Positions 11,158-60,056 of a stretch of 64,000 nt of DNA are shown in pieces (the stretch's first letter is position 1; every line of letters begins with the position of its first letter). Origin of the DNA: Gordius sp. MW1 (taxonomy: Eukaryota > Nematomorpha > Gordioida > Gordea > Gordiidae); assembly GCA_964036665.1 (NCBI GenBank), contig OZ038526.1, positions 9,362,001-9,426,000 of the forward strand, given 5' to 3'. The position numbers and the translations under genes are program-made. A model generated the notes under the pieces. That model made no database searches and was not told the origin of the DNA. It worked only from the letters and a program-made list of their open reading frames with translations.

Positions 11158-11517
11158 TCATTGCAAGGCCATAGGATATACAACATTTTTGGTTTTACCC
11201 TCCGGCGCAAAAATAAATAGGTTGCTAGGTGTGCCTACACGGGAGCAGGCTACATATAGCTGGCCATGCGAAAAGCATGGATTTTCTAGATTTAAGCCAA
11301 CAACTGTTAATGATTGACCCTGGGCTTTATTAATTGTCATTGCGAATGCTAGGCGTACAGGAAACTGTACGCGCTTGAATTCAAAGGGTACATCGGTAGG
11401 GATCATGGAGATGCGTGGGATCATCACGTCCTCGCCTTTATACGTGCCGCTGATTATAGTAGCCGCAATGACGTTTGGACGCAGTTGTTTTACGGCAAGT
11501 CTGGTGCCATTACACAA
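11158..11517 (-). pseudogene. Helitron helicase, C-terminal segment
   Basis: A 119-residue frame carrying the last superfamily-1 helicase motifs of a PIF1-type Helitron helicase: LCNGTRL at its start, AMTINKAQGQSL at about residues 59-70 and YVACSRVG near the end, closing with the natural stop at 11158. It is one base out of frame with the main helicase frame; the shift is at about 11510-11515, in RNLHPRG/LCNGT. The family as a whole unwinds DNA during rolling-circle transposition. Confidence 0.85.
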
Positions 11518-13478
11518 CCTCGGGGATGTAAATTACGCAGGAGTATTATAGGGCAACCAGGTTTCAAGGTTAATTTATGTGGTGGGAGACCAGAAGGTGT
11601 TAAAGAATTCAAAAATTCAACAGGATAATTTACAATTTGATCGGTTTCTATAACCGTATCAATAGAGCTGTAAGTAAAAGGATCACCTGGAATGTGCACT
11701 TGTATACGATCATTCATACGGGTGACGGCTGCATTTGTTGGCGCTAATATTGCACGTTCACAGAGCCATGTGTGATTGGTGTAGTGCGTTGCAATGTCGG
11801 GGAACACCATAGTTTCAACTGCCTCAGGCGATGGTAGTAGGTGACAAAAGGTTGTTGGAAAGATGCTTTCACTTGGATACGGGGTAAATGGAAAGGTACC
11901 GTTCCCCAAATCTAGGAGTTGTTGTGCAAATAGAGACGTATTCGGGAGTAAATGGACGCGCATGTTCGTAGTAAGAGTGAGGATAGTAAACTTCCACCAA
12001 AGATGTGAAGCCTTCAGGCAGGCATCTAGCTCATCAGCCGGTGTTGCTCTTGGGATAACAGGTAATGTCTGTCGAAAATCTCCGGCTAGCAACAATAAGG
12101 CACCCCCCATAGGGAAGTCAATTTTCCGCAAGTCTCTGAGAGTACGATCTAGTGCCTCGAGCGCTTTTTTATGCGCCATCGTACATTCATCCCAAATTAT
12201 GATTGAACATGTCTTTAGGACTGTCCCAATTCCAGAGTTCCGACTGATATTACAGATAGGTTTCTCAATCTGATGCAGATTTAGGGGGAGCTGGAAAGTA
12301 GAATGCGCCGTGCGGCCTCCATCGAGTAACGTCGCCGCTATACCCGATGATGCGACTGCTAGGGCTAGCTCGTTATTGGCGCGAAATTTTGCCAATAAAA
12401 GATTAAGTAGAAAAGTTTTACCGGTGCCGCCGGGAGCATCAAGGAAAAGCAGGCCGCCATTACCGATTGCGGCGTACTGCAGTACGGTGTCATACGCGGT
12501 TTTCTGGTCGACGGTCAAAATTAGTTCGCGTTCCTGTATAATTCTGCGCTGATGGGTAACATCGTATTGCAGTTCGAACCATACGTCTTTCGGTTGTACA
12601 TCGTGGCTGGTGCGGAGGGGTGCAGGTAAACCAAATTGGCATAGCATTTTATTGCTTATGGACATACATTGGTCCTCCAATAATATAAGAGCACGGTTAA
12701 AGATGTCATCGGAATAGGAAATATCTAATGCCGGATTTGCTCTCCGAATGCGCAAAAGAACGTCCTCGCTGAGGCTTTCCTTGTGCCTGTGCCACAGGGC
12801 TGTTGGATTTGATGGGGCGCAGGTGGTCACAATGAGCGCAAATAAATTACGGAGTTGGTAGGGGAGACATATGAGTGACGCTTCCTCTAAGGTCGTATCC
12901 CAATGCTGGTCATTTTCCAGCAGCTGAAGTTCAAGACAGGCTTGTCTATATGTGGCGCACACGGTGCCGGAGATCGTTTTCAGAGCCTGAAATGATGTCG
13001 GGCCTCGGACATTGTGAAGCAGCATGCGCAAATAAAAACATTCGGACTGATTGGGATGGATTGTATACATACGTCCCAAAGCATCAGCCACATGGATGTC
13101 CGGATAACTTGCAACCACAGGTCCCTGTTTTCTTCGTTCAAACACCTTTCGTGCTGCGTTCCAAGTGTAATACTTCGGTATGTCATGGTATAGCAGGGTT
13201 TGCGCAAAAGAGTCCGTTTGACACAGCTGGAAAAAGGCTGTCAATGTGGTATTGGGGGGGGGGGGGGGGTGTGCCACTTTGTGAACGGCGGTCGCCTCAG
13301 TGAAGTAGACGCGCTGGCCATTTTCTAAATGAACTGCAAGATGTAAAACGGGTGGGTAACGTTCGTGAATTGGGAACGCGAGGATTCGCCAAACAGCCTC
13401 ATTGCTGCTGATATACCGACCCGTTTGAAATTGGGTAATTTCATCCGGGTTAGAACGCGCTAGGCCAAAAACTGCCAC
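11490..13478 (-). pseudogene. Helitron helicase domain (PIF1 family)
   Basis: A 662-residue open frame continuing directly from the Rep frame after a stop codon at 13502-13500. It has Walker A GGTGKT at about residues 350-355, Walker B IIIWDE at about 426-431, and GDFRQTLPVI at about 466-475 (helicase motif III). It is fused behind Rep in the usual Helitron order. Five prolines near residue 72 are encoded by a run of 16 C (G on the plus strand, 13254-13269), an obvious slippage site. The frame ends at a one-base shift near 11512. Start codon use is meaningless here because the frame is the downstream half of a broken polyprotein. Confidence 0.9.
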
Positions 13479-13499
13479 ATCGCTGCTTTTGTTGACATA

Positions 13500-14459
13500 T
13501 TAGCATATGTAATTGATGGACTTTACGGAGTTGCAGTACTCAACGTTTATGTGAGCCGTGAATATTTTTGCGAGTAGGGGAGAGTAAGGGACTATCCAGC
13601 TGTTGTCAATTTCGACTGGGGAATTTTTTACCTGTATTGTGCAGGTGTGACCTCCCTCGCCGGGTGCACGGCGTCTATATAGTGGGTAGCCGTCGACGTC
13701 AGTTTTCGTTTCTTGAGTCAGGCGTTTAGGATAACGTTTAGAGCATTTACCTTCTTTCATGCACGGGGACGCGTTATTTATACCGCCGCAAGGTCCGTGA
13801 ATCATATGGCGAGTAACAGTGGTAAACAAAACGGGATCGGTTTGCGGATCGGGTAGTTCTGCACAAATAATGCTATCTATTTGCGACGGATGAATGGTGT
13901 CTAGGAGCCAAATTAGAATATGAGCATGGGGTAGCCCTCTTTTCTGCCATTCGATCGAGTACATCCAACAGGTAGTTTGCCCGAATATATGAGATTTAGC
14001 TATAAGATCAATAAGGCAACGAAGTTTTAGGCGGAAAACACGGGCGGTCAGATCGTGACAATGCGCTGGTTTCTGGCCTGCCAAAAGTAAATCCGTAATT
14101 TCGGGCCAGGCAGGATTGCAGGTGAAAGTTATAAACAGAGTAGGGCAGCCGAATTTACGTACATATGACATCGCATCCTGCGTATATTCATGCATGTGAC
14201 GGGGACTTCCTGTATACGTAGCCGGAAGGATGACCATTCGACCAATATCGGACGTGTTACCATCCTTCGCAATGGCATCGCGCAAGTGAATATATTGGTC
14301 GGCCCGAAGTAATCCCTGATTAAGGCGGATGTAAAGGAAGCGTTCGCTCTCGATCTTGGCATACATGTCGACGACATATTGATGAAATAGTTGTCGGCAC
14401 CGCAAGATGTGGTTAGGTTGGTTAGCGCGTATCATTAGCCGATACGCGTAAAAATTCAT
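13500..14459 (-). pseudogene. Helitron HUH Rep endonuclease domain
   Basis: 319 residues. ITFTCNPAWPEI at about 110-121 and EWQKRGLPHAHIL at about 170-182 hold the metal-binding HxH (His178, His180). The C-terminus NVEYCNSVKSINYIC is the start of the catalytic tyrosine motif. The stop codon TAA (13502-13500) lies where the family has a Lys, three residues after Tyr317 and just before the next Tyr, so it separates the two active-site tyrosines. Upstream, a 52-bp intron (14520 to 14469, GTAAGC ... CTACTAG) joins this exon in frame to the previous one. In intact elements this domain nicks and rejoins single-stranded DNA. Confidence 0.9.
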
Positions 14460-14567
14460 CGCCGATACCTAGTAGACAAATACACGGAGCATATAGGGGC
14501 ACAAAGAATGATAAGCTTACCTTTTTTTGTGTAGGAGCTCGCGTAGCGGAATCTAGACGCATTAGAT

Positions 14568-15212
14568 TTAGGTGGTAGCCATCCTCTCCTTGGCAAAACA
14601 ATATAGGGTATTGCAGGGCATCGTATGATCTGTGCGTGGCATCGATATTTTTGAGTGTTTCATCTCGTCGCGACGCTCGAATTCGCTTCCAACCATGACG
14701 ATCGCTACTTCGTCTATCGTAGGCGCGTTAAAGCCTCTTTCATGTTCACCAGGTGGCGTCCTATCAGCCTTGATAACAACATTATAATCGTCAGTGGGCA
14801 TTCGCTCTAAAGCGAGTTTGAACAGGGTAACCAGATGATTTTTAGTGTGGAATAAGTGCTGCAACGCGGTGACTATATCACGGCGGATAACGGGATGCAT
14901 CCCGCACCGTTGATCAGTTTCAGCGTCGCCCATGAAATATATTTGGAAAAAGCCGTGGGCAGCATCAGGTACCGGGAGAAGGGACCCGATAAGGTGGTAA
15001 ATTTGCCCTTGTACTCTAAACGTGGGCATGAAACCACCATCATAAATAATGCGCGTTGCTCCAAACGATGTCATTTGAAAGCAAGCGTTGTATTGGCGAA
15101 TGTATTTGAGAAAGTGTTTGGAGATAGGAGTAGCCCCAGAAACGTAACTTAAAAGCGGTTCCGGTGGCTCTTCCAGAGGTGGTAAATTGACCTTCCCATT
15201 CAAACAACACAT
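14568..15212 (-). pseudogene. Helitron N-terminal region (Helitron_like_N)
   Basis: Begins MCCLNGKVNLPPLEEPPEPL, the segment after the N-terminal zinc-binding cysteines. It continues through FQMTSFGA and HLIGSLLP, typical of the region ahead of Rep. At about 14655-14665 the frame shifts: the conserved HRSYDALQYPILF and GEDGYHLNLMRLD that follow are encoded one frame away, and reach the splice donor AAG/GTAAGC at 14521/14520. The closing residues of the uninterrupted frame (14568-14650) are therefore out-of-frame noise. Confidence 0.8.
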
Positions 15213-15835
15213 TCCACCCTGTTCTGTTCGGAAACGTAGAGCCTGACAATGTACACACAGTGTATTCGGCCAATTGTGACGGAGGGATGGAGGCTGTAAT
15301 CATAAGCCGAATCATACGCAAAAGCGGCTAAGGTTAAATTGGCTCCCGACCTATTTCGTGTAAGCCTGGCTCGGTTCCGAAGGTCGGCAAGCCGGGCGTT
15401 GCGTTTTCCGTCAGTTTCAGCTGCTTTAGACGTGGAGGCTCGGTTCCGAAGGGCGGTAAGGCGGGCGTTGCGTTTTTCGACAGTTTCAGCTGCTCTCGAC
15501 GTGGAGGCTCGGTTCCGAATGTCGGCTAACCGGGCGTTGCGTTTTTCGCCAGTTTCAGCTGCTCTCGACGTGGAGGCTCGGTTCCGAAGGTCGGCAAGCC
15601 GGGCGTTGCGCTTTTCGCCAGTTTCAGATGTTTTCGACGTGGAGGCTCGGTTCCGAAGGGCGGCTAGCCGGGCGTTGCGCTTTTCGCCAGTTTCAGCTGC
15701 TCTCGACGTGGAGGCTCGGTTCCGAAGGTCGGCAAGCCGGGCGTTGCGCTTTTCGCCAGTTTCAGCTGCTCTGGTCTTCTTTGCGGTTTTTGTAGTACGT
15801 AGAGTTTTTGTTAAAGTTTTTTTCCGCCGTGGCAT
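15200..15835 (-). pseudogene. Helitron N-terminus with 23-residue repeats
   Basis: The ATG at 15835 is followed by a Lys/Thr/Arg-rich start and then six repeats of about 23 residues (69 bp). The unit is built on AETGEKRNARLADLRNRAST, with highly similar DNA between units. It then reads into AAFAYDSAYDYSLHPSVTIG, the usual lead-in to the zinc-binding part. At about 15248 the frame shifts by one: the expected CVHCQALRF...MCCLNG lies in the next frame. Charged N-terminal repeats of this kind occur on many invertebrate Helitron proteins; their function is unknown. The plus-strand frame over the same bases is a shadow. Confidence 0.8.
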
Positions 15836-16074
15836 ATGAGCTTGTTGGTTATAATAGGGAGCAGCAAAATTAAAATAATATTTTTTATCATTTGGGGGGG
15901 GGGGTGCTTAAAATGAAACAGTATTAGTTAAGTATGTTATTAAACTATGCTATCATAGAGATGTTTATCTTCAAATTGGTATCATACCGTTGTATTACAT
16001 GTCAAAGCTTCCAAAAACTGGCACTAACATGTAGATGAGATGGCGAATGGCAGTAAGAAATGAAGGTCGATTGA

Positions 16075-29937: not shown

Positions 29938-30975
29938 ATGACAGGAAGTACAACCCTTTACCAAAAACAAGATGAGATCATCGATAGTAGTAAGGAAACG
30001 TCAAAAGCTGAAGGAGAAAACAATGAGTTTTGGGTAATTCTGCCAAATGCGATACATATAGACAAAGAAATATGCTCTCTTAAACAAAGCGATGAAAGTG
30101 TAAGCACATTATCAAGGAGCAATAGTCAGACTTGTATAAAAAATGAAATACAAACAAAAATCACTCCTAAAATATTAATTCCTAGTATATCCCTATCAAC
30201 TTCAGATGAATCAACCGCAGGAGCCGTTGTAGATAATAATATAATCCAGCAGCCTGATACGCGCGCTAAATTAAATTTTAGAGATATCGAATTTAGTTTG
30301 TCCCAAGATTTATCCGAAGCCTTTGGAACAACGCTACTCAATTATCGTTTTAAAGATGACAAGTTTGATCAAGGGAAATTGCTCATTTTAGATTCTTTGA
30401 GGATGCCCGCTCGTTATAATGTACCGAATCGAAGATGGGTACCTCAAGAAAAAAGATCTCAAATTAGTTTCAACGCCCGCAAACGCAGACAGCCAAGGAA
30501 TCGAATCAGCGGAGTAGGCCTAAACAAAAAACAACCTCGCGGTTTGTTGGCTTTTTATGAAGCTAAGAATATGCTTACATTTTACAACCATAAAAATCCT
30601 GAAATTAAAAAGCCGATTAGGTATTACCACAGGCTTCCGGCCTTGTTTCATACTAAAACACAAGATTTATTTGCTTTTCTCCAGACGATATTAGTGGCCT
30701 TGTTAAGTTTTCCTATATGTATCGTATTTGAAATGATTCGATGGGCCCACGAGATTATTATGGTGATGGTTGAAATGTTAATTTTAGCTAAGTTAATAAT
30801 CAAAAAATTCGCTAAAGCCGGCCGAAGCAAGGTTCTTAAACGGTTCCTCAAAAACATCCTTATGTTCATTCACATTTTGTTGTTATTATATATGACATTT
30901 TTATTAGATTATTTTATGACAGACATATATAGTTCAACATCTAATTCTATTTGTTCGCACAAATCTTTGCATTAA
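29938..30975 (+). CDS. Hypothetical membrane protein, single exon
   Basis: An uninterrupted 345-codon frame starting at the first ATG after AT-rich DNA. The N-terminal half (about 1-130) is polar and Ser/Thr/Glu-rich, likely disordered. Residues about 150-215 are strongly basic (RRWVPQEKR, NARKRRQPRNR). The C-terminal third has three hydrophobic stretches at about 244-268, 272-288 and 305-328, separated by a Lys/Arg-rich loop, consistent with a membrane protein. There is no N-terminal signal. Codon use is more balanced than in the surrounding DNA, and AATAAA follows at 31025-31030, 50 bp after the stop. I recognise no family. It is not next to transposon ends and has no RT, integrase or transposase motif. 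Confidence 0.7.
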   Translation: MTGSTTLYQKQDEIIDSSKETSKAEGENNEFWVILPNAIHIDKEICSLKQSDESVSTLSRSNSQTCIKNEIQTKITPKILIPSISLSTSDESTAGAVVDNNIIQQPDTRAKLNFRDIEFSLSQDLSEAFGTTLLNYRFKDDKFDQGKLLILDSLRMPARYNVPNRRWVPQEKRSQISFNARKRRQPRNRISGVGLNKKQPRGLLAFYEAKNMLTFYNHKNPEIKKPIRYYHRLPALFHTKTQDLFAFLQTILVALLSFPICIVFEMIRWAHEIIMVMVEMLILAKLIIKKFAKAGRSKVLKRFLKNILMFIHILLLLYMTFLLDYFMTDIYSSTSNSICSHKSLH

Positions 30976-34109: not shown

Positions 34110-35800
34110 CTAGTTACACAACATAAAAATCTACTTTTTTGTCCAAAAAAATAAAAGAAAATTCATTTAAATTTAAACCCTCAATTTTACTCGCCGTTTT
34201 ATAACGTATGTTTTGCATGTGATAAAAATTTGAAGAAGAAAAGATAGTATTTTTTTTAATTTGGCAGAAGTTGGCTATGTAACAAGGGATTGTTTTGTAA
34301 AATAAAATGTGAACATTAAATAATCAAATATACTTTAAAAATTCTATTATTAATTCAAAAATCCATATTGTCGTAAAGAATATTTCCAGTTATAACAACA
34401 ATTATCCTCGTCTAGGTTAGGCTTTATTTAGTGTATTACTAATTTTATATTAATTTATTTGCTAAAATATAAAAGGCAAGGAGGGGGTAACTAGGCAAGG
34501 GGGGGGGGGGTGAAATAAAAAAATTCAACGTCTTTTATATTTTATTTAATGTTTTTAATTATGATAACTTTTCATTGGTATAATATCTGTTTAAAACAAA
34601 ATAGCTTGTCTAAATGTATTTTTTTTTACCAAAAAATTGATTTTTAAATGTCGTTTATTTGTTTATTTTTTAAAAAACGAATAAATTTGTTATAATAATA
34701 TTTAGCTTAACTATGCTTCATTTCAACTCTCTAAATTAAATTCATTTTTTATAATAGAAATTCTTTATCTACAAAAACATTCTTTAATCAAAAAAAATTA
34801 ACAAAAAGGAATGTAAAACACTTTGAATTTGATTTCATTCCCAAGATATAACCTTTGGTTTTGCTCGATTTGGGATAACAACATAAATATATATGACAAA
34901 ATAATCTAATTAATGCCAATATTGTGAAATGAGAGATGATCTCTCTCCCTTTCTTCATCTCCTCCACTCCCGCCCCCTAGCGGTGGGCGGATAAGAGAGG
35001 AAGATAGGGGTAGGGGTTTAACCTTGGCATAGCGCCATTGAAAAAAAATCAATATAAAATAACGAAGGAATAATTTCCCCCTTTCCCCTTTTAATTGCTA
35101 TATAATAATATACAATTTTTCCTCCTAGTTTCACTACTTTCTTTACAAGATTTAACTTAATTGGTGAATTAAAGTAAATGCTACAGAGGGAAATTTACTA
35201 CATCCTATAGCACATCGATTGAGCCATACATTAGTAAAACATGGAGTTAACTAATTGTTATATGCATTCTAGAACTATAAAAATACCCCAAACTTTAAAT
35301 AGCTATAGCTTAGATATTTTATAATATATAAACTTGCCAAAATTTGCAAGAATAATATTTCAACTCTTATATGTTCATTAATATATTAATTTGCCTATTT
35401 AATCAAGTGGTTTAAATTTTATGCCTATAATTAGAGACAACTAATTTATTTTGTACAATATTTTTAAACGGCTTGGGGTCATTATTACCCCACCCGACCT
35501 ACGAAGTGGACTTATGGGGTTTGTAGGACCCCATACTTAAAATGATCATAATTTTAAAACCAATAGAGTAACACATCTCAAATTTTAAATATAAGTTTAT
35601 TAAAGCCTCTATAGGTTTGTAAAAAAAGGATTTAATTATAAATTGTAATTCTAAAATTATATGCAATTTACCAAACACAAAGAAAATGAATAAAAATCAA
35701 AATGACATGTTTTATTTTTGTAATGGATACCAAACAGTTAGTAGAAATATAAAAAGCAAATGTTTGTATAATAATAAAAGAAGGTTTGAAAGCAGCCAGG
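34110..35800. other. No gene recognised
   Basis: AT-rich, with a G12 run at 34499-34510 and a C/T-G/A patch at 34940-35020. A hairpin TGGGGT-CATTATT-ACCCCA lies at about 35474-35492. Confidence 0.5.
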
Positions 35801-35809
35801 ACAGGGTAA

Positions 35810-36750
35810 AAGTGGTTATAAATTCATAATAGTCAAAAAAAACAAAAAAATAATTTTCGAATCACATTTTAGCCAATAGTCATTTTTTTCATTGGTCAGC
35901 AGCCAGGACAAGGTAAAAGTGGATATAAATTTATAAGTCAAAACAAAAACAAAAAAAAAATTTTCGAATCACATTTTGGCCAATGGTCATTTTTTTTATT
36001 TGGTCAGTACCAACAGATGGTCTATAAATCAATGTTAGCGAAAAAAAACGGAAAAAATAAACTTGGATTCACATTTTGGCCAATGGTCATTTTTTTCATT
36101 GGTCAGCACCCAACGGACGGCCAAAAAGTCATAATAGCAATGGTAATAACAAGAACAATCATAATAGGCGGAAAAAACGGAAAAAGTATACTTGGATTCA
36201 CATTTTGACCAATGGTCATTTTTTTCATTGGTCAGCAGCCAGCAGACGGCCAAAAAGTCATAACAATGGTAGTAACAGGAACAATCATGATAGTCGAAAA
36301 AAAACGAAAAAATATACTTAGATTCACATTTTGGCCAATGGTCATTTTTTCCATCGGTCAGCAGCCAACGGACGGCCAAAAAGTCTTATTATCAATGGTA
36401 GTAACAAGAACAATCATAATAGTCGAAAAAAACGAAAAAATAAACTGGGATTCACATTTTGGCCAATGGTCATTTTTTTCATTGGTCAGCACCCAACGGA
36501 CGGCCAAAAAGTCTTAATAGCAATGGTAGTAACAGGAACAAACATAATAGTAAAAAAAAACCCGGGATTCGAACCCAAAAACTGGTTAAATTAACAAAAA
36601 TTAAAAGTAAACAAAACAAGACACTCGGTGCGTGACATCCACGTTCGGTGCGCACGCCGAATAGCGCACGCCACGCCGAATAGCGCACGCCGAATAGCAA
36701 GACAAAACAAAATGGAAAGTGAGCCCATAAATTGCATAGCAATTAATAAA
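35810..36750 (-). repeat. Hairpin-ended repeat with six tandem units
   Basis: Inverted relative to 470-1400. TTTTGGCCAATGGTCATTTT (or a close variant) recurs near 35865, 35968, 36072, 36205, 36330 and 36457, with a period of about 100-133 bp. Each unit has CCAATGG and CCATTGG facing each other. The array ends in GGGATTCGAACCC (36562-36574, B-box complement), then CACGCCGAATAGCG repeats, then GAGCCCATAAATTGCATAGC at 36721. The open frames across it, with repeated HFFHWS/NGRPKS motifs in all three frames, are shadows of the repeat. Confidence 0.8.
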
Positions 36751-46300: not shown

Positions 46301-46411
46301 GAAACATACCCTGTTTGCGGTTCATTAAGTCGACATTGCAGCTACCCCATGATTATAACATTGTGGTTAAAACTTTAAACAAGTTTACGCTATGAACTTT
46401 AATTTCGGGGA
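43373..46411. other. No gene recognised; upstream of neurexin-like exon
   Basis: AT-rich. Several 60-77 codon frames exist on the minus strand but have no recognisable motif and are compatible with chance. Confidence 0.5.
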
Positions 46412-47459
46412 ATGTGCTGGCTCAATTTATTGCTTTCAGGAACGTTCATCTTCACTTTTGACCAGATTCTGTTTTTTCAGAGACGTTTTATTGGCAAAAG
46501 AAGTAGAAGGCTTTACGCTCACAATAGACTTTGCAGAAAAATATTCATCACTACGGTTGTCTATTTAAACTTGTATACAATAGTCAAGGGCAACGCTGTA
46601 GATTCCCGCCGTCGCCATCAGTCGGTAACAACTTCTCAATTGCTTATTTTAAATGGAACAAATTTTTATTACCACACTTTTGGGAGGCCTTCTCAAAGCA
46701 CACAGGATATTGTTAAAAGCAAAGCCCTTTTGTATGCGCATCAACCATACACCTTGGATCGTGGGTCCAAAACATTAAAAACATCCTTTTCCATTAGATT
46801 TAACTTTAATTTAGACTTACCCTTGGAATCGAGTTGTTTGCTACTCTATGCTCAGAGTAGTGGCGAAGACGCATCCTTCATTCAATTACGGTATTACAGG
46901 GGAAGTCTTTGGTTGCGATATAAGCTGACTTTACTCATGCAGCCAAAGTCTAGGCTACCTGCTTCGCTTTACAAGAAAAATTTCTATAACCCTTTTCCCA
47001 AATCTATACACCTATCTAAACTGATGAGCCTAAAACCGAATTTAATAATCCCCGGTCATTGGCACAAATTCGAGATGACCCTTTTTCATCCTATAATTAA
47101 AACGGGTAGTCAAGATCCAAATTTGGTCTTAATGTACATTAAATTAGATGCCCACGATCCGCACTACATAAAATTTAAATCGGCCAGTAACAAGATATGG
47201 GACTACAAAAGTCCTAAGAATATTGGTAGTACAGCCTATCTCAAAAGTCTTTACTTGGGAGGACTACCAGACCGTGTAAAACGTGAACCGGACTCATTAA
47301 TGTACCCCTTGGTCTTATATGAGCGCAATTTTGTAGGGAAAATCGAAAATTTTTACGCACACATATCTCCACTCTACGAACAACTTAACGCGACCCATTC
47401 GCCTTCGTTAGGAGTTCTCCTTAATCTTATTCATGGGGATTCTAAAGAAAACTACTTAA
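46412..47459 (+). CDS. Neurexin-like gene, exon 1 (signal region + LNS1)
   Basis: About 349 codons. A hydrophobic stretch near residues 44-60 (IFITTVVYLNLYTIVKGNA) suits a signal peptide or signal anchor. A laminin-G/LNS domain follows (SFSIRFNFNLD ... CLLLYAQ ... IQLRYYRGSLWLRYKL ... HWHKFEM ... SLYLGGLPD ... ERNFVGKIENFYAHIS). The start is uncertain: an ATG lies at 46412, but acceptors TTTCAG/GA (46439) and TTTTTTCAG/AG (46480) could join an upstream exon instead. The donor is A/GTGAGG after 47459 (phase 1), matching exon 2. Neurexins are presynaptic adhesion proteins. The frame beyond 47459 to 47521 is intron read-through. Confidence 0.75.
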
Positions 47460-48535
47460 GTGAGGATTTTATCAAATTTAACTGTTTTATATTAATTATT
47501 AATTTGATTTACCACTTTTAAGTGGGTTCTACTAGCCAAAGCTTTTTGTGTTTTTACTACCAAAATCTTTTAAAAATGATGCAGCATATATGACCTACGA
47601 TTCAACAGTGATCCTGCTATATTTAAAAAAATATATAAATGTTTAGACGGGCGCAGTTAGAAATAGAGGGGGGATGTTCGGAAATGCATTTTAGAGGCGG
47701 TGACGATGGATTTTAAATTTTTAAAAGAAAATGGGGGGGGGGGGGGGGGGTGGGTGGAGGAAATTTGATCTTTGTTATAGCATATAATATGATATTGCTC
47801 GAGTACAGGTAAAAAATTATTTAAACATATTCATTTACTTTTAATATTAATAATACTAAATAATTAATTTGCAGGTGAATTAGTGTTAATGACGTATTTG
47901 AAACTTATATAATATAACTTATCTTAATGTTTGAATATAGTTTTGGTCCAACATAAAAACAGCCCCAACAATAAAACAAACCTGACATTGGATTAAATTT
48001 ATGCATCCGGATAACTTACTGAAAATTTAAAATATCATGTTATAAAGATTATTAGGATAGTTAGAAAAGTGCATGTGCGAAATCTTCAATGATATTGCCC
48101 TTTTTTATGAATTTAAATAATTTTTAATATATAACGGATTATATATTTAAAAATTAATCTTGATTGATTAGATTTATATGTAGCCAAGCATAGTCATTAC
48201 AATTCAATATATAAATTGCATAGCAATTAATATAAATTAAGGACTATGAAATGTATCTTAAATTTAATAGGATCATAAACTGCCGAAATTGGTTTGTAAA
48301 TGACCAATTACTATAGTAATAAACTAGACTAGTAAATTATTATTAAAGTAATGAAAAGCTTGTTATATATTGACAATATTGACATTACAGGGTATTTTAG
48401 TTTTGATAGAGCTAGTTTTTTTATTAAGGCACAATTATATATTAAATATAATAAAAGTAATTTAAATGTATAAATTTAATGATAAATTAATTATGCTTTA
48501 CTTATAATGTAATACTAATTTATAAAACGTCTAAA
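47460..48535. other. Neurexin-like intron 1, left part
   Basis: AT-rich intron sequence with a run of 18 G at 47733-47750 and one isolated hairpin sequence (ATAAATTGCATAGCAATTAA at 48211-48230). I looked for a Cys-rich EGF exon here and found none. Confidence 0.6.
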
Positions 48536-49184: not shown

Positions 49185-49790
49185 GGGGGGGGGGCACAGG
49201 GACCCATATCAGTAGAGGCATAGCCTCTGCTAGGGGAGGGAGGGTAATTGTCAATGTTAGCCAAAAAACGAAAAAAATAATTTCGATCCACATTTTGGCC
49301 AATGGTCATTTTTTTCCATCGGCCAGCAGCCAGCGGACGGCCAAAAAGTCATAATAGCAATGGTAGTAACAGGAACAATCATAATAGTCAAAAAAAACGA
49401 GAGAGAAAAAACTTGGATTCACATTTTGGCCCATGGTCATTTTTTTCATTGGTCAGCACCCAGCGGACGGCCAAAAAGTCTTATTATCAATGGTAGTAAT
49501 AGAATCATAAGAGTCAAAATAACATAAATTGCATAGCAATTAAAACCCGGGATTCGAACCCAAAAACTAGTTTAAAAATTGCATAGCAATTAATTAATAA
49601 TAGCAATTATTAACACAGCTAGGGAGATAGAGATAAGGGGTGGGGCATCTTACGCATTAATTTAAAAAATCGAAGCGTGTGTAGATTAATTGGGTGCGGA
49701 CGCGTTCGGTGCGTTACGTTACTTCGGAGGTGCGTTACGTTACTTCGGAAAATGGAAAGCGAGCCCATAAATTGCATAGCAATTAATAAT
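49185..49790 (-). repeat. Hairpin-ended repeat, two-unit copy
   Basis: Begins with a G11 run and GCACAGGGACCCATATCAGT, contains two GGCCAATGG/GGCCCATGG units (about 49297 and 49428) and GGGATTCGAACCC (49549-49561), and ends GAGCCCATAAATTGCATAGC at 49761. Two further hairpins lie at 49523-49540 and 49575-49590. Same order as 35810-36750. It sits inside the outer hAT. Confidence 0.75.
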
Positions 49791-51564: not shown

Positions 51565-53337
51565 CCTTAGAGGGTTTAAACCCTTCATCCTTTTGCGATA
51601 AATCTCTTCTATCAGAAATAATTAACCATTATGAATAAAAACTGGAAGACGGCGAAATAAATATGGCAACACTTTTTGTAAACCATTATAACTCTTTATC
51701 TTCAAATAAAATGCAATGATATATTTTCACTTATTAAAATTTTGCCCTCAGTAGTGTTTCCAAATTGTATTATTTTGCTTAAAATAATTTTAACTATCCC
51801 AATAACTTCAGGTTCATGCGAAAGATCGTTCTCACTGCTAAAACGGATTAAAATTTATCTTCGTTCCACAATTGGACAAGATAGGTTATCTTCCTTAGCT
51901 TTATTGAGCTTAGAACATGACTTTATAAATGTTATTCCCCCGGATGATATTATAAATTCGTTTGCAACATCGAGTAAAAGGCGTAATGAACTACTATTAA
52001 AAGACTAATTTTAATATTTAAAATTATCTGGGCTTTTAAACTTGTTTTAAGCTTTTTAACACTTTCAAAATATATTAAAATATTATTTAATTTACAAAAA
52101 TTCCATCCTAGTTTCAATTTAATTGTTTATCTCACATGCTTATTGTTTAACATATCTTGCATATTTTTATGTACCTACCACATGCACATATAAAGCCAAT
52201 AGTTTTCCAAAAAATTGTTTGTACACCATTTTTCCCCCTTTTTTAGTGATATCCCATCATAAGTTTGATAAATTAATATTAATAACCAATTCCTGCATTT
52301 TATAGACAATTGTTAACGCATCAAAACTTTCAAGGGATAAAACTCCTAAAAAAAATCATTATGTTTGTCTTTGGACGCTAAGTTGTTCTGTGCATCTCAC
52401 ATCTCTAATTTCATCTAAAATTGTCAAATAAAATTTTGATTCATTTAATTTTGACAGAATATTTTTAGGTTCATTTAGCCGTTAAATTTATTAGTTCTTT
52501 TTAATTTTTAGGTGGTGAAGGGGGGGGGGTTGTGCAAATATATCTATAATATCAAGGGGCAATAACTTCTAAATACTAATATTAATTTCATAATTAATTT
52601 TTTATATCTTATGTTATAATTGCGCCTTTTGAGGATCTAACCTAAAAAAGGCTTTTACATGTTCTCATTGTTTTCCTGATATAAATGCTGCCTGAAAATG
52701 CTGCCAATATTGCATATGTAAAATTAAAATTTGTTATATAAATGGCCAAGATTCTTTGGGTTGTGGCAATAATTTTTATAAAAACTTTGTTATATAGTTT
52801 TTTAACTATTTGCATTATTTTTTAAAATGTCAACGATTTCTTGTCAATATCCCCGTTCAACTTTTACCCTTACAAACTTATTATACCATGTGAAATTTTC
52901 TACATTGTTTTAACTACATCACTTTGTTTTATTTATGAATAAATTTTATTAATTTTATGCCCTATAAACATGAGGGGACATATTAGTGTGATATAAATAG
53001 AAAAAATACACAAAGTAGTAGCGGAATTTTAAGTTTGTCCAACGTTTATGAAAGAAAATTTTTTTAATTGCATTTGACCCATGGTCGTATTTAGGTTTTG
53101 GATTGGGGGGTGGGCAAAACATATCTTTTATTCTTAAAGGTGTGGGTAGGAAAATTTTTCTGTCCCCCCCCCCTATTTGACCAGCTCAGCCCCCCCAAGG
53201 CAAAAAGGCTAGCTACGCCACTGACAGTTACAGTTCCTCTGAAGTCAATAATTAATTACAGTTACATTTCTGAAGAAAAGGTACTAGTTTCAGGAACTAG
53301 TTACACTTAACTTGTTATTAACAGCTCTACTAACAAG

Positions 53338-54370
53338 GCTCCAATACTATAACGAATCGTAGAATGCGTCAGCTATAGATTCACAAATTTCATAGCTTAA
53401 ATAACTTCTTTGAAAAGATTTATAATAACTGATTTTATGTACCCTTCTAAACGATTTGCTGATAAATATAATTTTGCTAATTAATAAATATTAGACGTAG
53501 AATGAGATTGTATTAAATTAGAATGTTTTTAATTTATTTAGTACCTTGACATTTAGGTTGACGAGCTTCTGGTTAGTTCCTTTATAATAGGATAATACAA
53601 AAATTTAAATTTTTGCCATACATTTTTTAAAATATAAAATTTGATTACTCTCCCGCTTTTTAGATAGGCCGTTTATAAGCTTAGCTAGAATAAATTTTTA
53701 ACCATATATATTTAATTTATCAAATGCTTAACTTTAGAATATATTTGATACCTTATTTGCTCAATTCTGAATTTGTAACTCATTCTATCCTAAGTTCTCA
53801 TCAGCGTTTTAAAATTATAATCTAGGTTTAGAGAGGCAAAACCCTTAAAGTGTTTATTTGCTCAGGTATTCAATAATGTTCAATTTCACATAACATAAGT
53901 TAAAGACAAAGCGCAAAACTATTCCAGTATCCATAATAATAATTTTTCCATTTACTGTGAGCATTGCATAAAGACTTTACTTTAATATTAAAACTTAGAT
54001 TAATATTAATATGAATATAAAAGATGCTTAAAATTTAATTTTTTTGCCTATTTAGAGGATTTATGGTCTTAAAAATCTACATTTTGGGCTAAATTGTAAA
54101 TTTTTTCAAATTTTAAGGAATCATCTAACAAGCCTACATTTTTCTATGTTTTATATTGCATTCAATCTTCATATTATTATTGTAAAGAAGCTACATCTAA
54201 AAATTTTAAATTATATTTTACAAACCATTAACGAGATAAGAAATTTGCATGGAAAATATAGTTCGTTAAATGTTTGTATGCATATTTTCGCCGTTTATAA
54301 ATAAAAATATTCATATTTTTAAAACATTATCAGAATATTTTATTTTTATATTTGATTATTTATTAATTAG
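53338..54370. other. Neurexin-like intron 1, right part
   Basis: AT-rich intron ending in the acceptor TATTAATTAG/AT at 54370. No EGF-coding exon is seen. Confidence 0.6.
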
Positions 54371-54762
54371 ATTTTACTACATCACCCCAACTCTCATTGT
54401 CTGGAAGAGAAAGTATTTCAACCAACGATCTTGCCCCTGAAAATGGCGAAAAGAGCCTAGAATTGTCTAGATATTTATCATATCCATCTAGTGAATCCGC
54501 TAATGATCACGAGGGACTTGGCATCTTATACACTAGAGAAGAATTAAGTATATCATTTAAGACTCGGACGCTGGATGGGCTTTTGTTTTATAATGGAATG
54601 GGAAGCAACTATCTAAGCTTGCGCCTAAAGAACGGCTCCTTGTCTATAAGCACGAACCATGATACAGAAGCGTTCACTTTCAGCTCTATACAATCCTTTC
54701 AGAATCTAGTTATCGCAGACGGAGCATGGCATACATTAAAAATTAGCAGAGACATACAAAAC
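54371..54762 (+). CDS. Neurexin-like gene, exon 2 (LNS2, first part)
   Basis: The acceptor ATTAATTAG precedes 54371. The first two bases complete the codon begun by the last base of exon 1 (Asn). The product runs through a Ser-rich linker into LNS2: ELSISFKTRTLDGLLFYNGM, YLSLRLKNGSLSIS, DGAWHTLKISRDIQN. The donor is AAC/GTATGT at 54763, phase 0. The residues SFKTRT.DGLL..NG and W(H)...ISR are the diagnostic LNS core. The extra residues of the open frame after 54762 are intronic. Confidence 0.85.
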
Positions 54763-55053
54763 GTATGTTGGGATATTCATAAAAAATATTGAGTCGAATT
54801 GTAGCAGATAAGTTAATGATTAGGATATATGCACCAGGCTATTAATGCAAGCTTTGCCAAATTATTGTTGTAATTTTGTAATTAATTTTTAATATACAAA
54901 TTAAAAATTTATCAAATCTTATTGTGTAGACGTATAGACCTCATAACCTAAAAATTATTTTATGAGGTATAAAATTTTACGATGTATTATATTACGAATT
55001 TAATCTATATAATTGTTTCAATTTACTGATGATCCATTTATATGATATTTTAG

Positions 55054-55077
55054 CTTTTGCCGTCGATGACTATGCTA
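55054..55077 (+). CDS. Candidate 24-nt microexon (splice site 2 position)
   Basis: TGATATTTTAG/CTTTTG ... GCTA/GTAAGTAT: a good acceptor and a near-consensus donor enclose exactly 24 nt. The flanking exons 2 and 3 both meet in phase 0, so eight codons (LLPSMTML) can be included or skipped without changing frame. Vertebrate neurexins have alternatively spliced short exons (site SS2) at this point of LNS2, between the ISR-type strand and the VDG strand. Inclusion is inferred, not shown. Confidence 0.5.
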
Positions 55078-55263
55078 GTAAGTATATAATTACATAAACC
55101 TTAATATGAAAAGTTAATAGTCGAAATTTATTATACACCTAGAAACAGCAGATCTTCCAGTTCAAGGTAGTAATCAGCTTTGATTGCAATGCATTATCTA
55201 TAGTTATAATTTATTGTCTAAAATGTTATCTGCGTAAATGCTATAATTTGATTTAATTCATAG

Positions 55264-55422
55264 ATCCACATAAACATTGATGGAAAGTTTAAAGATAAAT
55301 TCTCAACCACTACCTCAAGCCCATTTTTCTCAAGCAAAGTAATGTTTCTAGGCGGCTCACAGTATTATAAAGGCTCCACGCCTCCACCCGAGAGGGATAA
55401 TTTCGTGGGTTGCCTTCAAAAA
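55264..55422 (+). CDS. Neurexin-like gene, exon 3 (LNS2, second part)
   Basis: 53 codons between ATTCATAG/ATC and AAA/GTAAAA, phase 0 at both ends. It reads IHINIDGKFKDKF, then VMFLGGSQYYKGSTPPPERD and NFVGCLQK: the VDG strand, the GG loop and the F.GC that close an LNS domain. Joined to exon 2 it gives ISRDIQN-IHINIDG without a gap. Confidence 0.85.
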
Positions 55423-55449
55423 GTAAAACAATATCGCTTTTAGATATAT

Positions 55450-55615: not shown

Positions 55616-56296
55616 TATTTAGTTAACAAAAATAACCTAACTACCTCTTTTCATTCCTTTTAATTATTAATGATTTTCGAATAGCATACTTTTTGCAATT
55701 ACAAGGTGTAGAATGTGTAACGTGAGACCAAACAAATTTTTTAATCATCAATCACTCAAGCTCCTCTCATCTTAAACCGGCTATAACCATAAATTATTAA
55801 ACGTATAAATATATTTTTAGACTTTTAAAATTGTTATAGAGTTTATATTAATTAGTTAACATAACACTTTTTTAATTGCGCATGTAAACATTCTGTAGAT
55901 TAACTGTTGTTAAATGTTTAATTCAAATCAAGATTTATTTCTACATATTTTGCTAAGAGAACACAGGTCTATAATAAATTTGAGGCAAAGCTAAAAAAAA
56001 AGAATTTTTGTACTCTATTATTCTTTGCTAATCAAGGATTAATGACTATAAATACAATGACACTCCATAATTTATAATCAACTCCAAATACGCAAAAATC
56101 GAAGCATTTTATTATTCACGTAGGAAATAATAAATTTTTAAGATTTTAGCGATAACAAATGTTTTTTGGGTAAATAACGCCCAAATAGAATAAGTACTAT
56201 TTGATTATTAAACAATATTATTCATTAATTTCATTTATATTAGATTTTTTATTAAGTTCCTAACAATAATTTTTTAAATAATAATTTTTCGCTCAG

Positions 56297-57199
56297 GCCA
56301 TATGGAAACTTGACGGCCTCCGAATGGACATATTGAACCTTGTTGCAATTAATCACCCATTCTTTAGGCAAAGAGGTAACATCAAATATAATTGTGCTCA
56401 ACTACCAATTAAACCTGTTATCGCAACTCAAACACTATATTCTAAAGCTAAGATAGGCCTATCATCACCAGATTCATATATAGATTTAAGACAACCTCTA
56501 GTATCATACATTCAGGATTTGAATCATACTTTCAATGGCACGAGTTTACAGTCTATTTCGTTTGTAATCAAAAACACCAAATCAGATGGTTTAATAATGT
56601 CTATGCTAGTCCCTACAATCTCAAACAATCCCGACGGCGCCATCATTTTAGCTATCGAACTTATTGGTGGGTCTCTAAGATTTTTAATTTTTGTCAAAAG
56701 CCACGCAATTCTCTCAAACTCGTCCTATAATAGACACCTACACACGCTGGACGTTCTCATCAAACAACGCCATGGACCTACTGCTAACAAAGTCGGTCCT
56801 TCATATGGCGATTATTCTTACACGCATCTTATAAATGTGAATAAAGTCGCGCCGCTAGCAGATAGGATATTGGACGATTTGGAAGTGGTAGGAGATGAGT
56901 GTTCATCAACAGCTGTTAGGTTGTTATTCAAGAGCGGAGGTGTGCTAAAAATGGAAATTAATGGAATCAATGCTGGACAATTAAAAGTATCAAAAAGCAA
57001 CGCCACATCTCTATCAGCATTTTTAACTAACCTGTTGCTTAACCGAAGCCAAATAATTCTAGGAAAAACGCCATTGCTTAAGAGCTTCCCTCATATAGAA
57101 CATAGGAAGGAAATTTGGTCATCTTCTGTCTCCCGTGGTTTTGTGGGTTGTATCGAGAACCTTAAGATCAATGATATTGCAATAAATCTTGGACATATT
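56297..57199 (+). CDS. Neurexin-like gene, exon 4 (LNS2 end + LNS3)
   Basis: TTTTTCGCTCAG/GCC starts the exon in phase 0, nine codons before the first Met. The first 40 residues finish the LNS2 linker (GNIKYNCAQLP with its Cys, like the VAFKC segment of neurexins). LNS3 follows: LQSISFVIKNTKSDGLIMSM, AIELIGGSLRFLI, SQIILGKTP, then EIWSSSVSRGFVGCIENLKI, closely matching the neurexin EVW....YVGCI pattern. The donor is placed at ATT/GTACTA (57200), a weak site chosen because it gives phase 0 and joins exon 5. Confidence 0.85.
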
Positions 57200-57499
57200 G
57201 TACTATATAGAAAAACATCAAGCAAACATTATTTTTTAAGTAATTTCATTTTAAGCTAATACAAAATACACTGTTGATCGTTAACATATTTTTCCATAAA
57301 TGAACTCATTTTGATAATACCAACATAACATAATAGGAGAGAAAGATAATTTAATGTGACTTTAATGATAATTTTGGTTAATGCTTATGCATAACAATCA
57401 AATAAATTATTTTTATACATATGATGATGATAACAATGAGTCTTAACGAATAATAATTTTGAATGATGATCAATAATACTATTTTGGGGGTATGTAGAG

Positions 57500-57638
57500 A
57501 ATTTGTCCGAATGTTCGATGAAGAAAAATCAGTCATGCGTTCAAGCTAACTGCATGAATCTAAAACAAGTATGCAAGTCATCTATTACGTGTGAATGCGG
57601 TTCCGAACAGCTCGTGATCAATCCACTAGCCTTTAGAG
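57500..57638 (+). CDS. Neurexin-like gene, exon 5 (EGF-like)
   Basis: TATGTAGAG/AAT ... AGAG/GTAATT, entering in phase 0 and leaving in phase 1. It encodes SECSMKKNQSCVQANCMNLK, QVCKSSITCECG and SEQLVINPLAFRG. The spacing of the first five cysteines and CxC fit the second EGF domain of alpha-neurexins, but the last EGF cysteine is missing. LAFRG aligns with the LSYDG that opens LNS4. Confidence 0.75.
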
Positions 57639-60056
57639 GTAATTTGAAATAAGTTAACTTAACACTCAATATAATCATATTATTCTTTATACTTCCCGAT
57701 GGCTGAAGGTAAAAATTAAATTAATAAAATAAAGTGACCTTAAAAATAGTATTATTGTTTTTCCATAATGCCCTTTTTATTTATCAATTACCGACATCGA
57801 TTAATGCTATTAAGCAGTGAGATACAAATACAAACTCTTAAATTTTACGTCCTTTGTAGCTTATTCAAAGTTAAGGCATATAAAAAAACGCGCTCCACTC
57901 ATTTTCAACCAATTTTAGACCCATGCTAAATTTTGGTTTATGAAGTTTGCTGCAAGATCGAATTGAAGTGTATATAGTGACGCCGCTAACGATTTCTAAA
58001 AAAAAATATTACACTTAATACTAGATTCAAGTTTGGGATGTATAATGGTATTTTTGTTATATTTTTGATCTATCCTGAATGTTATTATCTAATGTCACAT
58101 ACACTGTTCTTTGAACTAAATACTTGTTCCTTCTTAAAGTAAAGATTAATCATGGTCCCGCCTTTTAATGAATTATATTATTGAAATATATTTTACAGTA
58201 TTATATAACAATTACAAAGTACCATGATACTTAAATATTTGAAAAGTAAAATGAAAATACGCCTTAATGTCTAATTAAAATTAATTAATGAGTATTCAGC
58301 GAAATTGATCCTATATTAATACTCATAAATTGCATAGCATTTAATAGAAATTAGAGCTATAATCTTAAATACTAAAGAGCATTAAGCCTTTAAGTTATTT
58401 ATCAGTGCAAGACATTAGCAGACTTTGTTGATTTTAAAGCCATAACTCATTGGCCTATTCAGGCGCCTAGCCAGGATTTTCTCAACGGGGGGGGGGACTG
58501 CGAAAATTTTGTTATATCATTTTTATTAATAATATAATAAAAATCAAGGACCAGAAGGGTGGTTCCTGCCAAGCCCGTTGGCCTACAGGCCGGGCAGGCA
58601 ACTGTCGTAAATTTAGATTTTCGAGGAGGCCCGGGTAGGCACCATAAACAGATTTGGGCAATTTGAGCTTAATGAGATTTTTTATATTGTGATTATTTTG
58701 TTTTTGTGTATTAAATTGTATAATAACAAGAATCAATGATGGTTCTTATTAATAAAATGTTTTAAAAATTATATTAAATTATTGATAAAATATTGAATTT
58801 ATTGTTTCAAGCCGGACAATTTGGGTAGCTCTAAAGATACTGGGCGGACTATAAGAAGGATTAGGGCGAGCCCAAATAGGCAATTTAGTGAAATATAAAT
58901 TATGATGAAGATATAAATTCTGTGAATAGATTATAGATCGTTTAGCTTCAAACTTACATTTTTCCCGCCAAAAATCAATTTATTGGCTGAAAATAAATAA
59001 TGAACGTTGCACGGTCGACGGCCAAACATTTTGTCCTATTCTGAGCCTTTTGCCCAGAGATCTAGCTTAGGAATTCACATGAAAGTGAGCATTAGCGATG
59101 ATGTGATAATAATGCCGATTCTTTAATCAATGTTTTAACATACCATATATGGAGAATGTCGCTCATTGGTATATGTGGTGTTGGGAGAGAAAAAATGTGG
59201 TTATATCAGGCAATGGGTTAAATATAATCTAAAAGCTGTTCTGTTGTCGAGAGTATTCTTTGGACGAGAAATTTTTCAGTTTTAGACGAAACCATATACA
59301 ATAAATTAATTATTGATTTTAGGACGATGTTTGTGCCATTTAAATTACTAGAGTAAATTTTGGCCAAAATTTTCTTGAGTCACTTGCGATAATTGACGAA
59401 TATTGCCGAAACAAGATTTTAAAGTTAGTTAGAAATAGTTTTCTTATCGAAAACATTTGATTATTTATTAATTAAAAAATCAAGAGGGGCATTATTGATT
59501 TCCGATAAGCCTGATGAAGCTTTTCGTCATCACTGTTTCATATAAATTATTTGAGGTGCAATGTTATTTAATAGTATAATCCCCTCTTCAATGTCAAGAA
59601 TTTTTTCTAAAATTGTTTGAATAGTAATCATGTATGGCTGAGAAGAGAATTCAAATATTTCGATTATCGAAAAGAATACCCCTATATTTTATAAAATTGC
59701 TACTTATAGCTGTGGGATGCTCGATAACTTTTTTCCCTGGCAAGCGAACAAGTAAGTTAATTCGTTAAAAGAAAAATAATGAGTTCAAAGCTTTTTGATA
59801 AAAATTGAATTTAATAATAAAAAGGATATGTATACTTTTAAGGTAGTTACAAGTGTCTTAGTCTTTTGTGCAACTATAAATACCTTCATTTAGAAATTAA
59901 TTTATTATAAAAGAAATTGTTGTAATTTTTGCCAGGGGGAAAGTTCCGCTCTCCCCTCCCCTTAACTTGTCCAAAGACTAAAATTATTAAATTATTATGT
60001 ATCAAATACATATTAGATATTATTTTTAAAATTCCAAAATTTACTTGTTATATAAC

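Follow-up and report, generated by a model that had tools for sequence, protein, structure and literature searches.

A candidate 24-nucleotide microexon at the splice site 2 position of a non-vertebrate neurexin gene

The intron that divides the LNS2 domain of a non-vertebrate neurexin gene contains a 24-nt in-frame segment at the same bond, and of the same length in residues, as the SS2A insert of vertebrate neurexins. We hold with moderate confidence that this segment (55054-55077, + strand) is a real microexon of an alpha-neurexin, most likely an optional cassette and possibly a constitutive exon. Both its splicing and its alternative use are what we infer from the genomic sequence. The confidences given to the competing explanations below overlap, and their sum is not one.

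A divergent neurexin gene

The window, which is the whole 64,000-nt stretch of DNA analyzed, has a GC content of 32.5%. Pfam and PDB chain matches locate a divergent animal neurexin gene on its + strand with the following parts.

46403-47521, + strand: open frame with LNS1 (Laminin_G_2, 0.0061, under the Pfam cut-off); limits approximate
54367-54762, + strand: LNS2 exon, first half (Laminin_G_2, 3e-11; neurexin-1-alpha LNS2 by phmmer); 5' limit approximate (open-frame start), 3' limit set at GTATGT
55264-55422, + strand: LNS2 exon, second half, IHINIDG...GCLQK, with donor GTAAAA at 55423
56297-57187, + strand: LNS3 coding region, beginning AIWKLDG and preceded by CGCTCAG; 3' limit approximate
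57470-57652, + strand: weak cysteine-rich EGF-like stretch 3' of LNS3, seen by eye in the translation

Laminin_G_2 also matches the second half of LNS2 (55264-55425, E = 5e-4) and LNS3 over the open frame 56285-57259 (1.2e-6), and the coding join from LNS2 to LNS3 reads GCLQK/AIWKLDG. The best PDB chains for the joined LNS2 exons are neurexin-1-alpha, aligned on LNS2 (3r05, 3qcw, and 3poy), with E values against the top chains of 1.9e-36 for the whole chain and 2e-14 for the LNS2 stretch. A two-sequence alignment of the joined exons gives 33% identity to neurexin-1-alpha LNS2, and on this low identity the gene is taken to be that of a non-vertebrate. Alpha-neurexins have the order LNS1-EGF1-LNS2-LNS3-EGF2, and CASPR adds discoidin and fibrinogen domains. 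The Pfam order here is LNS2 then LNS3, with the LNS1 match below the cut-off. By the closeness of its LNS2 among solved structures, the predicted gene classes as an alpha-neurexin.

LNS1 and LNS3 had no PDB match at 0.001, and a search of three neurexin pieces against NCBIfam gave 0 families. For the EGF-like stretch, Pfam gave nothing at 0.1 and a single weak hit, to Attractin, at 0.33. No EGF emerged when the + strand from 40000 onward was scanned for cysteine spacing, a scan that did not pick up this EGF2-like stretch either. A hAT transposase dimerization region (2.4e-12) is located at 51682-52008, between the LNS1 and LNS2 blocks.

No neurexin relatives were found in viral or prokaryote contig collections. 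The viral contigs gave 11 pattern matches with the first LNS2 exon and 52 with a two-row alignment, and 0 were confirmed for each. The joined LNS2 exons gave 43 matches in prokaryote genome contigs, none confirmed, and the two-row alignment gave 117 with 1 confirmed. That one, in a Paludibacteraceae bacterium record (28% identity), is taken as a bacterial laminin-G-like domain.

The LNS2 intron and its candidate microexon

The two halves of LNS2 are separated by a phase 0 intron of 501 nt (54763-55263) with the following features.

54763-55053, + strand: intron 5' of the microexon, 291 nt, GTATGT...TATTTTAG, GC 23%
55026-55030, + strand: branch-point-like CTGAT with its A at 55029, 25 nt from the microexon with no intervening AG
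55054-55077, + strand: candidate microexon, 24 nt, LLPSMTML, at the SS2A position, AG/CTTTTGCCGTCGATGACTATGCTA/GTAAGT
55078-55263, + strand: intron 3' of the microexon, 186 nt, GTAAGT...TTCATAG, GC 26%
55143-55166, + strand: second, weaker in-frame 24-nt cassette, KQQIFQFK, AAACAGCAGATCTTCCAGTTCAAG, AG/GT flanked

The upstream exon ends ...AGAGACATACAAAAC at 54762 and is followed by GTATGT, and the downstream exon begins at 55264 after TTCATAG. The acceptor side of the candidate (55046-55053) reads TATTTTAG, and its GTAAGT donor occupies 55078-55083. All junctions are in phase 0, and the frame is open with and without the 24 nt. The first-pass annotation had described an in-frame 24-nt microexon with AG...GTAAGT borders between phase 0 LNS2 exons, and direct reading of the sequence confirmed this description.

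Place and length match vertebrate SS2A

Structure 6pnq is a neurexin-1 LNS2 chain that carries the 8-residue SS2A insert. With the candidate included, the predicted protein reads RDIQN-LLPSMTML-IHINIDG and aligns gap-free at the insert with RNLRQ-HSGIGHAM-VTISVDG of 6pnq, and the insert-free chain 3r05 reads RNLRQ-VTISVDG. The same bond and the same length as the 6pnq insert identify the position as the SS2 bond and the length as that of SS2A, so the earlier placement at neurexin SS2 holds to the residue in the 3r05/6pnq alignment. The vertebrate SS2a insert is 8 residues long (PMC10063607, in part). The candidate thus shares with it the LNS2 domain, the bond, the 8-residue length, and the reading frame.

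The two differ in the inserted residues and in the residues that align with ligand contacts, and the splicing of the candidate is a prediction. LLPSMTML is hydrophobic, and its BLOSUM62 sum against HSGIGHAM is -13, compared to a null mean of -8.7; 81% of stop-free noncoding octamers score at least as high. This bears out the first-pass statement that the residues are unrelated to the vertebrate insert. The 7-residue B extension of vertebrates has no counterpart here, where reading past the donor (GTA AGT ATA TAA) reaches a stop.

Inclusion of the octamer raises the score on 6pnq from 50.1 to 56.4 bits. This 6.3-bit gain arises from the absent gap and not from the residues, and the skipped form scores 62.9 bits on the insert-free chain 6pnp, compared to 53.0 with the insert. 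The skipped form is also better on 3r05 (128.8 versus 99.5 bits); these higher scores on insert-free chains count against a real microexon. Skipping gives a canonical LNS2.

Splice sites, composition, and chance expectation

The candidate is the best in-frame 3n cassette of 60 nt or less in its intron as scored with splice matrices. These matrices are untrained approximations in two sets, generic and AT-tuned; the AT-tuned set favors T-rich acceptors like this one and was written after the site was seen. The microexon donor ranks first among the 26 GTs listed for the intron, and its acceptor ranks eighth of the 23 AGs. The donor scores 7.0 compared to 4.5 for the upstream exon. The acceptor score of 3.2 is about equal to the 3.4 at 55264 and far below the 8.9 at 56297 with the generic matrices.

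To count as a branch site, a CTRAY motif had to lie 15-40 nt upstream of the AG without another AG in between, a test devised after the CTGAT motif had been noticed. Among 1025 AGs from three noncoding parts of the window, 26 have such a site, and of the two acceptors of the gene that were tested it is found at 56297 and is absent at 55264. The microexon has a GC content of 46%; the intron on either side has 23-26% and the exons of the gene 38-41%. Its codon log-odds is +1.7, where noncoding DNA averages -1.3 and exons +1.3; 9.9% of stop-free 24-mers from noncoding DNA score as high, and the noncoding training stretches include transposon remnants. The branch site and exon-like composition of the candidate push towards a real exon. 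TGCATG and GCATG are absent from the intron, and TGC is absent from the 100 nt before the microexon, so there is no Rbfox-type or eMIC-type signature among these motifs.

Alternatively, the segment is a chance pseudo-exon, in which case the 501-nt intron is removed whole and the AG...GT pair is never used. We consider this unlikely. Chance expectation was calculated from dinucleotide shuffles of the intron and from 1377 real 501-nt windows with a GC of 32% or less, which overlap, cover both strands, maybe include some coding stretches, and leave out only this intron. Acceptor first-base weights in the 5000-shuffle run and the intron ranking differ from those in the 4000-, 6000-, and 10,000-shuffle runs. 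An in-frame 24-nt cassette this strong occurred in 86/10,000 shuffles and 17/1377 windows with the generic set, and in 7/10,000 and 0/1377 with the AT-tuned set. The generic frequency of a 24-nt cassette at least as good was 0.78% of 5000, 0.98% of 4000, and 0.86% of 10,000 shuffles. When the branch site was added, no 24-nt cassette was found in 10,000 shuffles or 1377 windows by either set. The rarity of the exact 24 nt at the SS2 bond, with and without the branch site, argues against a pseudo-exon, as do the exon-like GC and codons.

Short cassettes as a class are not rare, which favors the pseudo-exon. A 3n cassette of any length up to 30 nt was found in 1071/10,000 shuffles and 296/1377 windows (generic) or 138/10,000 and 37/1377 (AT-tuned); at 10.7% and 1.4% of shuffles, size class alone is weak evidence. 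The branch site reduced these counts to 46/10,000 and 8/1377 (generic) and 11/10,000 and 8/1377 (AT-tuned). When score and codon log-odds were combined, 0.17% of 6000 shuffles had a 24-nt cassette as good and 4.2% a 3n cassette no longer than 30 nt by the generic set; the AT-tuned set gave 0 and 0.45%. In the 6886-nt region from LNS1 to LNS2, the generic threshold is passed by 8 in-frame cassettes no longer than 30 nt, one of 24 nt, and the AT-tuned one by 3, none of 24 nt. This density of about 0.6 per 501 nt calls for caution; two other intronic stretches of the gene, of 876 and 311 nt, have 0 at the generic threshold. The rank of the acceptor, the second 24-nt candidate in the same intron, and the lack of likeness to the vertebrate octamer are also consistent with a pseudo-exon.

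Neither 24-mer recurs in the window within 3 mismatches. A repeat origin of the intron was rejected: it has no direct repeats and three AT-rich inverted pairs.

Constitutive or alternative

Another reading is a real exon that is constitutive, or that arose within this lineage without homology to SS2A, as an independent 8-residue lengthening of the loop in an old intron. This explanation, which we give a minority share of belief, overlaps with the preferred reading of a real microexon, which leaves ancestry open. Constitutive microexons of flies have stronger splice sites than their neighbors, and alternative ones have similar sites (PMC8042270, in part). The donor of the candidate, stronger than that of the upstream exon, follows the constitutive pattern, whereas its acceptor does not exceed that of the next exon in strength. 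Site strength therefore does not decide between constitutive and alternative use. The unrelated residues and the replacement of Asp-329 by Asn and of Ile-401 by Lys in the alignment also favor a constitutive or lineage-gained exon, and the canonical LNS2 of the skipped form argues against it.

Ancestry of the insert

In honeybee neurexin I, an intron/exon junction falls at the place of human SS2 (PMC2570956, in part). With this junction common to the bee, the best reading is that the SS2 intron itself is probably old. The bee gene shares the junction at the SS2 position and differs from the candidate in its transcripts, none of which has an SS2 insert in the portions of the main text of PMC2570956 covered. 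A literature search of titles and abstract openings, with subscription papers mostly outside it, found no report of an invertebrate SS2 insert. Extensive alternative splicing of neurexins appears to be exclusive to vertebrates according to a 2025 review (PMC12665717, in part, citing Tabuchi and Sudhof 2002), and neurexophilin, a ligand of SS2, is absent from invertebrates (PMC12665717 and PMC6856630, both in part). Microexons of 24 nt are used by flies in genes such as slo, didum, and sdk (PMC8042270, in part). These share the size of the candidate and are alternatively spliced, with differences from head to body (slo) or from one sex to the other (didum and sdk). Unlike the candidate, they belong to other genes, and the main text of PMC8042270 has 0 mentions of 'neurexin' or 'Nrx'. 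The bee junction and the 24-nt exons of flies both favor a real microexon.

An ancient homologous switch would require that an 8-residue optional insert at SS2 predates vertebrates and neurexophilins and that this lineage kept its length and switch and replaced its residues and ligand, possibly with tandem 24-nt cassettes that give 0, 8, or 16 residues. We view this history as distinctly doubtful, and convergence fits as well as ancient regulated insertion. If true, an SS2 cassette outside vertebrates with the same position and size would imply that the switch preceded its known ligands. The alternative, if true, would be that the SS2 loop suits tuning so well that insertion there arose twice.

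Ligand sites and possible function

Of the vertebrate SS2A insert, HSGIG stays flexible as a loop and HAM extends strand β9, and the insert raises neurexophilin-1 affinity about six-fold (PMC6856630, in part). Dystroglycan prefers insert-free LNS2 (PMC4183798 and PMC12665717, both in part). Nrxn3-alpha carrying SS2a still rescued function when SS4 was without an insert (PMC10063607, in part).

The candidate microexon splits the intron between RDIQN and IHINIDG. Its inclusion would add LLPSMTML in the SS2 loop directly before LNS2 strand β9, and skipping would leave a normal LNS2. By analogy to vertebrate SS2A, the insert may lengthen the start of strand β9 and change the ligand-binding rim of LNS2. 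The end of LLPSMTML continues the alternating pattern of β9, which makes a strand extension plausible.

Asp-329 coordinates calcium and its alanine mutant lowers dystroglycan binding (PMC4183798, in part), and Ile-401 is a neurexophilin contact (PMC6856630, in part). With residue numbers matched through the mutant list of PMC4183798, as far as covered, Asp-329 aligns with Asn (54607-54609) and Ile-401 with Lys (55285-55287). Both known vertebrate LNS2 ligand sites thus look changed in the predicted protein. Because the neurexophilin-contact and Ca2+-ligand residues are changed, any effect on ligands would not be the vertebrate one in detail, and the switch, if working, would act on another partner or on loop conformation.

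A second 24-nt cassette in the intron

The cassette at 55143-55166 is absent from the first-pass annotation. It ranks third-best among the cassettes listed for the intron, has no stop, and ends in the donor AAG/GTAGTA with a codon log-odds of +1.96. It is improbable that this is the working cassette, or that both are used singly or together to add 8 or 16 residues, compared to 8 for SS2a and 15 for SS2ab in vertebrates. The frame, length, donor, and codons of the second cassette favor such use, as does the strand-like alternation of IFQFK-IHINID. Its sites are weaker than those of 55054-55077 (8.9 versus 10.2 generic, 7.8 versus 14.4 AT-tuned), and a CTRAY branch site free of AG is lacking. 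Neither 4000 nor 6000 shuffles gave an intron with two such 24-nt cassettes, a count made after both had been seen.

Other features of the window

The C-terminal part of a 345-aa open frame at 29938-30975 is hydrophobic, and Pfam gave no match to the frame at 0.1. A PIF1-like helicase (1.4e-59 for 11490-13499) with adjoining open frames, perhaps a Helitron, lies on the - strand at 11490-15907, and a 69-nt tandem repeat is located within this region at 15368-15772. Tandem repeats of about 107-130 nt (TTTTGGCCAATGGTCATTTTTTTC...) that are alike occur at 942-1403, 35791-36561, and 49263-49499.
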